DNA of 62,864 nt from an uncultured cyanobacterium (GTDB lineage: Bacteria > Cyanobacteriota > Cyanobacteriia > PCC-6307 > Cyanobiaceae): contig CAIJRN010000030.1 of assembly GCA_903823115.1 (NCBI GenBank), positions 1-62,864 on the forward strand, read 5' to 3'. Made by a program: the position numbers and the translations under genes. The notes beneath the pieces were generated by a model. The model made no database searches and had not been told where the DNA came from. It saw only the letters and a program-made list of their open reading frames with translations. Positions 2 through 6,828 of this stretch are shown here, piece after piece (the stretch's first letter is position 1; every line of letters begins with the position of its first letter).

Positions 2-1006
2 AGCACCCTGCAGCGCTGGCGGCGTCAGTTCACAGGTGATGGGGATGGCACTGATGGTCGTAAAGGCAGCCAGCGCCTGGTTTCTCACCGACTGAGCGAG
101 GAGGAACGCCAGCGGATCCTGCTCACCTGCAACCAGAGCGAGTTTTCAGCGTTGCCACCGGGTCAGATCGTGCCGGCGCTGGCCGATCGCGGGCTAGATA
201 TCGGCTCGGAGCGCAGCTTCTATCGGGTCCTCCATGTGAACGGCCAGGCCCATCGCCGTGGCCGTGCCAGGCCGCCCCAGGAGCCACGTCCGATGCCGCG
301 GCTGGAGGCCAGAGGAGCCAATGAGGTCTGGAGTTGGGACATCACGTATCTGCCCACCAGCGTCCGTGGCGTCTGGCTCTACCTCTATCTGGTGGTCGAC
401 GTCTGGAGCCGCAAAGTGGTGGCCTGGGATGTCGCCGATCGCGAGGAGGCCCAGATCGCCGCTGATCTCGTCAGTCGGGCCTGCCTGCGGGAGCGGATCA
501 GCAAGGGTCGCCGCCAGCGCTTGATCCTCCATGCCGACAACGGCAACGCCGTAGCCGAAGGCTTCCGCGAAGCGATTGCGGGCCGCCACCTTGGAAGTCC
601 GGCTGGAGGAGCTGGGTGTCCTGCGGTCGTTCTCCAGGCCGAGGGTGTCCAACGACAACCCCTACTCGGAGTCGTTGTTCCGCACCGTGAAATACCGGCC
701 GGACTACCCTCGGGGCCATTCCGCAGCGTGGAAGAGGCCTGCTCCTGGGCCTGTGCATTCGTGGACTGGTACAACCACCAGCACCGCCACAGCGGCATCC
801 GGTTCGTGACGCCCGATCAGCGCCACAGCGGTCAGGCCATTGCGATCTGCAGCCAACGAGCCCAGCTGTACGAACAGGCCCGTCAGCGTCATCCCCGCCG
901 CTGGAGCCGCAGCACACGCTGCTGGCGTCAGCCGGAGGTGGTCTGGATCACTCCACCACCTCCAGAAAACAGCATCATTCCGACTACGTTGGTGATGGCC
1001 GCCTGA
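2..1006 (+). pseudogene. IS3-family transposase (integrase core), 5' cut by window, frameshifted
   Basis: DDE transposase of the IS3 type, which would catalyse strand transfer of the insertion sequence. The frame is open from the first bases, so the true start lies left of the window. The first Asp is in WSWDITYL (338-340) and the second in HADNGN (536-538). The catalytic Glu of the SESLFRTVKY motif (669-671) is in another frame. About 25 extra bases after codon GNA (around 551-578) shift the frame, and one missing base near 713 restores it. The C-terminal integrase part (FVDWYNHQHRHSGIRF) is therefore back in the first frame. The joined product has a garbled ~50-residue middle without the catalytic Glu and is almost certainly inactive. 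Terminal inverted repeats were not identified. Family assignment is firm. Confidence 0.85.
551..578 (+). repeat. Small dispersed repeat, copy 1, inside the transposase
   Basis: A 28-bp segment beginning GTAGCCGAAGGCTTCCGC and ending AGCGATTG matches 25 of 28 bases of a second copy at 6688-6715 on the other strand. Removing about 25 bp here restores a conventional IS3 reading (NGNA followed by RAATLE). The segment therefore looks like an insertion into the gene. It contains a short palindrome, GCTTC-CGC-GAAGC. It resembles the small mobile dispersed repeats known from other cyanobacteria, though I cannot assign it to a named family. Confidence 0.7.
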
Positions 1007-2916: not shown

Positions 2917-3471
2917 ATGGGCTTTCGCTTCCGCCGCTCCGCCCGCCTGGGTCCACTGAGGTTCAACTTTTCCAGCAGCGGACTGAGCTCGATCTCCGTC
3001 GGCGGGCGCGGGGCTTCCTTCAACATCCCAGTGAGCCGTAGCGGCGGCCCCCGCACCACCGTGGGGCTGCCGGGCACGGGCCTGAGCTGGAGCGTGGAGC
3101 ACACCCCGGACCGTCCCGCTGCCATCCCCGCCGGACCGGCCGAGGGCCTGCCCAACAGCCGCCGGCTGCGGCCGGGCCAGCTCGATGCCCTCAAGCAATC
3201 GCTGCTGAGAGTGCTTCACCAGGAGCTTTTTGCAGCCGGCTCCCCAGGGGAGCAGTTGTGGGACCACGGCCTGATGAGCCGCCAGCTCGCCGATGGTTCC
3301 CTCGGTGCGCGAAGCACAGGCCTGTTGGCGCTGATCGAGACGCCGGAAGCGATGGAGGCCTACCTGCTGCGGGCCCAGGGCCAGGACGATGCCAAACGCC
3401 GGGCTCAGCGCTGCATCACGGCCGTGCAGGAAGCCACACGGCTGGCTGCTGGCCGGGGCTGGCTTCCTTGA
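2917..3471 (+). CDS. DUF4236 domain protein
   Basis: A 184-residue protein with the N-terminal DUF4236 signature: a start of FRFRRSARLGP, then FNFSSSGLSSISVGGRG and the Gly-rich TVGLPGTGLSW at about residue 50. The domain is found at the N-terminus of many small bacterial proteins and its role is unknown. The rest (residues 70-184) is Arg/Leu-rich and probably helical (LRPGQLDALKQSLLRVLHQEL). A decayed paralogue with the same N- and C-terminal segments lies at 13369-13720. It is followed at about 100 bp by the HicB-like gene on the same strand. Confidence 0.75.
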   Translation: MGFRFRRSARLGPLRFNFSSSGLSSISVGGRGASFNIPVSRSGGPRTTVGLPGTGLSWSVEHTPDRPAAIPAGPAEGLPNSRRLRPGQLDALKQSLLRVLHQELFAAGSPGEQLWDHGLMSRQLADGSLGARSTGLLALIETPEAMEAYLLRAQGQDDAKRRAQRCITAVQEATRLAAGRGWLP

Positions 3472-6417: not shown

Positions 6418-6828
6418 TCAGCCCCAGGGAACGTCCAGGAACTCCACCAGCAGCACGCCCCTGTGGGTGCCATGGATCTTCACCAGGCCCGCCTTGGCGG
6501 CCTGCTCCATCCCGGCGCGCTCCTTGCGCACCTGCTCGGCGCTGGCGAGCACCCGCACCCAGCCACCGGTCATGAAGTCCTCGCTGCCCGTCTCGAAAAC
6601 CTGCAGCCGTCGATGCTGGTTGCTGTTGCGTTCGTAATACAGGCCCCCGCCGGTGGGATCCGTTCCCTCCGCCCACACCTGATCCACCAACCGCTGCGCG
6701 GAAGCCTGCGGCTACAGCTTCCCGATCGCCAGTGGGTCCTGTGCCGCTGCGTCAATGGCCTCACCATCAAGCACCAGCGGGTTGCCCGGGTCCTCACGGT
6801 TGTCAGAAATGATCAATCGGTCGCCCAT
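6418..6828 (-). pseudogene. Conserved hypothetical interrupted by an in-frame stop within a 24-bp repeat insertion
   Basis: The intact reading starts at ATG 6828 (MGDRLIISDNREDPG), preceded by GAGGAG at a proper distance. It runs 38 codons to AIGKL, meets TAG inside the dispersed repeat (6688-6715), and continues in the same frame as LVDQVWAEGTDPTGGGLYYE to FLDVPWG. Excising 24 bp gives GKLLVDQVW without a frame change, so the repeat most likely inserted in a live gene of about 128 codons. The downstream 90-residue part could still start from TTG/GTG at 6690-6693. The second half (SEDFMTGGWVRVLAS, LVKIHGTHRGVLLVEFLDV) looks like a well-kept small cyanobacterial protein of unknown function. 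Confidence 0.7.
6688..6715 (-). repeat. Small dispersed repeat, copy 2
   Basis: On the minus strand it begins GTAGCCGCAGGCTTCCGC and ends AGCGGTTG. It differs from copy 1 (551-578) at three of 28 positions (A/C, A/C, A/G). Its TAG lies in the reading frame of the host gene and ends translation after 38 codons. Confidence 0.7.

Follow-up and report, generated by a model that had tools for sequence, protein, structure and literature searches.

Background

The closest described systems include the small dispersed repeats (SDRs), which are known, reportedly, from filamentous cyanobacteria; those of Nostoc are said to be 21-27 nt long and dispersed, with a structure kept by compensatory change and with nested copies. 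According to one report, the SDR5 insertion point in HIP1 is precise, after the third base and before the fourth (PMC4390886), and the passages on SDRs in two other papers (PMC2884548 and PMC3116915) give no sequences. Double-hairpin elements (DHEs) from the mitochondria of Allomyces and fission yeast are described, in the excerpts of two papers, as two hairpins that are potentially mobile, those of Allomyces being without flanking duplication (PMC10085805, PMC2800124). According to similar excerpts, GTAG-tagged REPs are short hairpin-forming dispersed repeats that are present in cyanobacteria (PMC3733652), and Rickettsia palindromic elements (RPEs), of about 150 bp, insert in genes with the reading frame kept (PMC10969869). 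Literature searches on small repeats found no title on such repeats in Cyanobium or other picocyanobacteria in the open-licence literature, and the available passages of a paper on freshwater picocyanobacteria mention transposases and CRISPR only (PMC9361551).

Insertion of a small repeat in a transposase gene

The stretch of DNA analyzed here (62,864 nt, referred to as the window) comes from a picocyanobacterium, as the initial annotation had proposed: judging from identical matches, its genus takes in Cyanobium sp. FGCU6 and Synechococcus sp. CCY 9618. The annotation had placed a small repeat, inserted in a transposase gene, at 551-578 (GTAGCCGAAGGCTTCCGCGAAGCGATTG). The features of this region and of a second copy of the repeat are as follows.

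2-1006, + strand: IS3/IS481-like transposase gene (3' part), cut by the contig start
530-544, + strand: HADNG motif (second catalytic Asp), frame 2
551-576, + strand: inserted segment replacing one A of the empty homologues; net gain of 25 nt, the 24-nt element and one extra base
552-576, + strand: element proper, T-hairpin 1-T-hairpin 2-T
553-563, + strand: hairpin 1, AGCC-GAA-GGCT
565-575, + strand: hairpin 2, CCGC-GAA-GCGA, with a G-to-A change that breaks its outermost pair
651-674, + strand: Glu motif NDNPYSES, frame 3
711-717, + strand: 1-nt deletion (near 714) that restores frame 2
6418-6828, - strand: ORF split by the second copy; no Pfam match; in-frame TAG at 6714-6712
6690-6714, - strand: second copy of the element, TAGCCGCAGGCTTCCGCGCAGCGGT, both stems perfect

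The host gene matched rve in Pfam (2.4e-14) and scored 114.9 bits against the NCBIfam IS3 model, which is below the cut-off of 160. The Asp and Glu of its two motifs are residues that act in catalysis in DDE transposases. Thirty-two related IS copies were aligned over the site; these were hand-picked from the fetched loci, with second copies on one contig and matches missing the site excluded. The segment was absent from 30 of the 32 and present in two, the window copy and L059 from Synechococcus lacustris Tous, so that it is an insertion, as had been suggested, rather than a part of every copy of the IS. Two more S. lacustris copies lay beyond this alignment, one empty (L073) and one filled but truncated (L079). 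Other internal changes were seen in relatives of the IS: tandem duplications of 33 nt near query position 903 in L072, an apparent additional stretch of 46 nt near 645 in L025, and a 56-nt insertion near 236 in L024.

The empty copies closest to the window read GCC-A-TGCGG, and the window at the same place reads GCC-GT-AGCCGAAGGCTTCCGCGAAGCGAT-TGCGG, that is, GCC-GT[AGCC...GAT]TGCGG. The addition of about 25 bp between codons of the IS3 core, with loss of the DDE frame, was thus borne out as a net gain of 25 nt between HADNG and NDNPYSES, on account of which the frame between the two motifs is lost. The ends were corrected: the inserted part is 551-576 rather than 551-578, and the usual unit is 24 nt, with one more base in the window copy. 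The 1-nt deletion near 714 was unique to the window among the aligned copies that cover this stretch (two of the 32 do not). Because of the 25-nt gain followed by this deletion, a 334-aa ORF runs open across the transposase with the Glu region translated out of frame. As read from its sequence, the window copy of the transposase is broken although its ORF is open end to end.

The only other remains of this IS in the same genome were three 118-bp 3' ends with 89% identity, and there was no complete second copy; one of the three lies at the very start of its contig (base 1), and for the other two the locus ends with the match. The ends of the insertion and any target duplication were judged on IS copies of related genomes, in which no duplication was found.

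The second copy of the 28-mer, at 6688-6715 on the - strand, had the three differences that had been annotated, two of them A/C: A/C at position 8, A/C at position 20, and A/G at position 25. The two A/C differences are the free middle loop bases of the two hairpins. No comparable 28-mer match arose in shuffled sequence (mean 0.00, 100 shuffles). When the window was searched for double GNA hairpins with one mispair allowed, only these two copies were found, which is no excess over shuffled sequence (1.07, maximum 4).

Structure of the unit

The unit can be written T-[AGCC-GNA-GGCT]-T-[CYGC-GNA-GCRG]-T, that is, two tandem 4-bp hairpins with GNA triloops. The 42 genomes of the genus were examined by two overlapping pattern searches, each with one hairpin unconstrained, which gave 98 and 84 matches, and 111 distinct copies were gathered with their flanks. 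Some of the 98 matches with hairpin 1 unconstrained look like chance (for example, in G013:C1); control patterns gave 3 matches for this search vs 0 for the 84-match search. With hairpin 1 unconstrained, all four pairs formed in 80 of the 98 matches, in five different perfect stems (AGCC/GGCT 49, AGGC/GCCT 18, AGAC/GTCT 7, AGCG/CGCT 5, and AGTC/GACT 1). With hairpin 2 unconstrained, this was so in 62 of the 84, in three perfect stems (CTGC/GCAG 35, CTCC/GGAG 14, and CCGC/GCGG 13).

Among 72 distinct sequences, 93% of the cells were paired, compared with a mean of 81% in 1000 shuffles (maximum 84%), and 66 cells were doubly changed, compared with 14 (maximum 33; 1000 shuffles). A separate covariation count was run on 66 of the 72 sequences, the six that it omitted being included in the count above. 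Three of its five measures agreed, and the signal dropped when the partners were slid; in the same 66 sequences, the number of pairs changed on both sides was not unusual (56 of 500 shuffles equally high), and neither was that of further pair types (119 of 500). These comparisons indicate that stem pairing is maintained by compensatory change.

The GNA loops were part of the search patterns, so the constancy of the loop G and A is partly imposed. When two mismatches were allowed anywhere, the four loop G/A positions took 15 of the 61 mismatches, about their share, and the stems were no less constant. The base in the middle of the loop varies across copies. Two hairpins were predicted in single-stranded DNA for all five copies tried, the second hairpin of the window copy having three pairs, while in RNA they were predicted for one of three copies, other structures being preferred in the remaining two. 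Folding z-scores were weak (-0.7 to -1.3). DNA mini-hairpins that combine a GNA or GNNA loop with two or more G-C pairs are extraordinarily stable (PMC4686876). In 458 kb of the window's own genome, made up of the window and contigs picked for holding copies, there were seven perfect-stem double GNA hairpins, six with the one-base spacer, compared with 0.2 of any spacing in five shuffles.

Insertion sites

Empty and filled homologues were read base by base at 13 different sites, grouped by their flanks; some of these lie within the same IS family, and an empty homologue was at hand for only part of the 111 gathered copies. The gain was 24 nt at 11 of the 13 sites, 25 nt at the TLRAK site, and either 24 nt (L059) or 25 nt (window) at the orfB site. 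None of the 13 sites showed a target duplication. At 12 of the 13, the insertion point was an A in the best empty homologue (P about 6e-9 at an A frequency of 0.17, the A content of the window), and the base before this A was C or G at most sites. A T replaces the A in the filled copies at those 12 sites, with the exception that one site, represented by 13 copies, has two copies with C and one that is still A. At an intergenic site, C stands at this point in the best empty homologue and A in a second one; the filled copy there keeps A, and against one homologue the insertion is an exact 24 nt.

The effect on reading frames was followed in the 104 copies with enough flank, seven of the 111 being too short. 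No open 300-nt frame was present at 36 of these, several were present at 28, and one was present at 40; in the last group, the frame reads through the element in 33 and stops in 7. There was no sign that genes are avoided or preferred: a similar share of random positions in the same loci (720 of 1984) was without an open frame. The units give genes eight extra codons or a stop and in this way contribute to protein change and to the loss of genes.

Recurrence, host genes, and nesting

The same nucleotide of orfB is occupied in the window copy and in L059, which are far apart on the tree of IS copies; the window copy is 96.4% like the empty copy L015, and L059 is 86.7% like the empty copy L058. 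In the truncated copy from the same strain as L059 (L079:2036-2700), orfA and orfB form one fusion and the element lies precisely at their junction, which looks as if two insertions had recombined. One nucleotide in orfA of the same IS family is also occupied repeatedly, in G027 and G022, where L018 and L064 group with the empty copy L019, and L117 groups with the empty copies L024 and L020; the tree supports for this grouping are only 0.84 to 0.91. The same orfA nucleotide is occupied in G036 as well, by a unit with a different hairpin-1 stem. Copies at the same site could in part come from recombination between IS copies.

Other host genes include DDE and Mutator-type transposases and one unnamed multi-copy gene. 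Uma2 was considered as a name for the gene at the 'GG^E' site and was dropped, Pfam and NCBIfam giving no family. An integron integrase in the window's own genome (G000:C38:7413-8204; L014, L189; TIGR02249, about 371 bits) holds an element with an in-frame TAG. A gene for an AbrB-like regulator (PF14250) in a related genome (L103) holds an element with two in-frame TAG codons. The DUF4236 gene at 2917-3471 of the window lacks the element, and a homologous gene of another genome (L147) bears a copy.

Units are also found within units. A second double-hairpin unit, adding 22 nt, is nested in the hairpin-2 loop at L102:2402, L123:302, and L124:302, where the gap is 43 instead of 21, and a like nested unit is present in the window's own genome (L239:7146, - strand). 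The nested unit is of the TAGGCGMAGCCTTCTCGAAGAGA type in L102, L123, and L239 and has diverged in L124. Pairing between the bases that flank the element was inspected by eye and does not hold.

Distribution

The annotation's view of the segment as a dispersed repeat agrees with its distribution. Within three mismatches of the 28-mer, the window's own genome has only two places, both in the window; with looser patterns, about nine family copies were found (two on C30, three on C49, and one each on C12, C38, C34, and C9), and control patterns gave 0. With at most one mismatch, the core was present in 31 of 37 genomes of the genus, the window's own included, and in 0 of 23 others; a control pattern gave 1 match. 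Of 300 genomes sampled from the family, 59 had the exact core, and these were spread over 15 of 59 genera. In a sample of 388 genomes from the class, it was found in nine, all within the family, and in none of the 324 outside it. There were no exact matches of TAGCCGNAGGCTTCYGCGNAGCRGT in the viral_contigs set that would point to carriage by phage. In 200 kb from each of two other cyanobacterial genomes (families f12 and f24), a search for double GNA hairpins found one that has no spacer and none that has the one-base spacer, a sample that says little about Nostoc. Comparison of homologous sequences thus shows a dispersed family with 24-nt gains at an A, no duplication, nested units, and a shared IS nucleotide in distant lineages.

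Possible mechanisms of movement

The best explanation of these observations as a whole is probably a family of very small non-coding mobile elements, each made of two mini-hairpins. That the unit is a mobile element of two hairpins appears very probable from the comparisons above; for a route through single-stranded DNA taken by itself, the chances seem somewhat short of even. The element would move as folded single-stranded DNA, in which GNA mini-hairpins are exceptionally stable, and an enzyme acting in trans would join it to an exposed target strand beside an A, a non-autonomous element being the simplest reading. Given the compensatory stems and the DNA-type loops, the substrate is likely to be a folded single strand, and joining of single strands fits the lack of a target duplication. 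In the case of the window, the insertion would have inactivated the IS transposase, the Glu motif being set apart and shifted in frame. Only tentatively can the most specific form of this proposal be put forward, in which a 24-nt element of two extraordinarily stable DNA mini-hairpins is moved as single-stranded DNA by a not-yet-recognised enzyme and inserted precisely at an A, with the A changed to T. If this is true, few mobile elements at the DNA level for which a structure and an insertion rule are defined would be as small, and this one recurs at a fixed nucleotide in transposase genes.

RNA intermediates have reportedly been proposed for the SDRs of Nostoc. Movement through RNA, with reverse transcription, would likewise leave no target duplication, and the excerpt on the double-hairpin elements of Allomyces proposes this route from the same argument (PMC2800124). 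The stems and GNA loops of the present element suit stable DNA hairpins, however, and in a small test two of three copies preferred other structures as RNA, so an RNA route is considered unlikely here.

The number of insertions could also be small and old, with the copies spread by recombination and horizontal transfer of host genes and ISs in place of movement. The many copies in transposases and in the unnamed multi-copy gene, the recurrence of the same sites, and the apparently recombined copy L079 would be in keeping with this; yet at 13 different sites the gain over empty homologues is exactly 24 or 25 nt, the closest relative of the window copy (96.4% identical) is empty, and units are nested, all of which argues for movement and makes its absence quite improbable.

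It is very doubtful that the element is a repeat of the REP/REPIN type, spread by a RAYT (Y1 tyrosine transposase) like the GTAG-tagged repeats. Hairpins are present, a GTAG-like start occurs in about half of the copies (GT before the core in 54 of 111), and GTAG repeats occur in cyanobacteria, in the excerpt available (PMC3733652). However, the A and G of this 'GTAG' sit within the stem of hairpin 1, the first base is C in 32 of the 111 copies (CT before the core), and many copies are intragenic. A RAYT was rejected as the mover: Y1_Tnp (PF01797) had no match in the window's genome, which is 99.8% complete, and was found in 6 of 42 genus genomes and in none of the five richest in hairpin-1-free matches, with no association with copy number (P = 0.97).

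Integron integrases act on single-stranded hairpins, and 28 of the 42 genus genomes but 0 of 14 controls have one over the cut-off (at a looser threshold 39 of the 42 match, as do all 14 controls, for which reason only the count over the cut-off was used), yet movement of the element by the host integrase that recombines folded single-stranded attC sites was rejected as scarcely credible, since the association with copy number is weak and not significant (mean 2.8 with and 1.4 without, P = 0.19), G007 has five hairpin-1-free matches and no integrase over the cut-off, and the integrase of the window's own genome itself holds an element with an in-frame stop.

With clean pairs of empty and filled sites, a fixed length and target base, stems that are compensatory, and natural hot spots, all in picocyanobacteria of which there are cultured strains, the family makes it possible to test both the enzyme and the route of movement, whether through single-stranded DNA or through RNA. 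The unit may rank among the smallest known mobile DNA elements.

Comparison with described elements

The likeness to the SDRs of filamentous cyanobacteria that had been pointed out initially is supported by the 24-nt length, the compensatory stems, and the nesting, and it is a likeness to SDRs as they are reported to be. SDRs are said to be 21-27 nt long with many dispersed copies, and the present element has 24-nt insertions with 98 and 84 overlapping matches in 42 genomes. They are also said to share a common structure with compensatory change, which is seen here, the likeness to the structures of SDR4, SDR5, and SDR6 being one by description. Nested insertions, another reported feature, are seen here in L102, L123, L124, and the window's own genome (L239). 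The target differs: SDR5 inserts in HIP1, whereas this element inserts at an A in varied contexts, and among the empty sites shown (13 read) none equals GCGATCGC.

With the DHEs, the element shares two hairpins and the lack of a target duplication, a likeness of form. The DHEs are mitochondrial, those of fission yeast mostly intergenic in the passages available, while this element is on a prokaryote contig. It differs from REPs and from the REPIN-RAYT system in having no conserved unpaired GTAG tag, no Y1 transposase, and many intragenic copies. A target duplication, by which MITEs and other IS-derived elements are recognized, was seen at none of the 13 sites. The RPEs are alike by description in inserting within genes with the frame kept, and they differ in their length of about 150 bp and in the organisms that carry them. 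From these comparisons, the element appears to work like the SDRs, as those are reported to, and like the fungal DHEs, but it is found in another lineage and has its own target rule.
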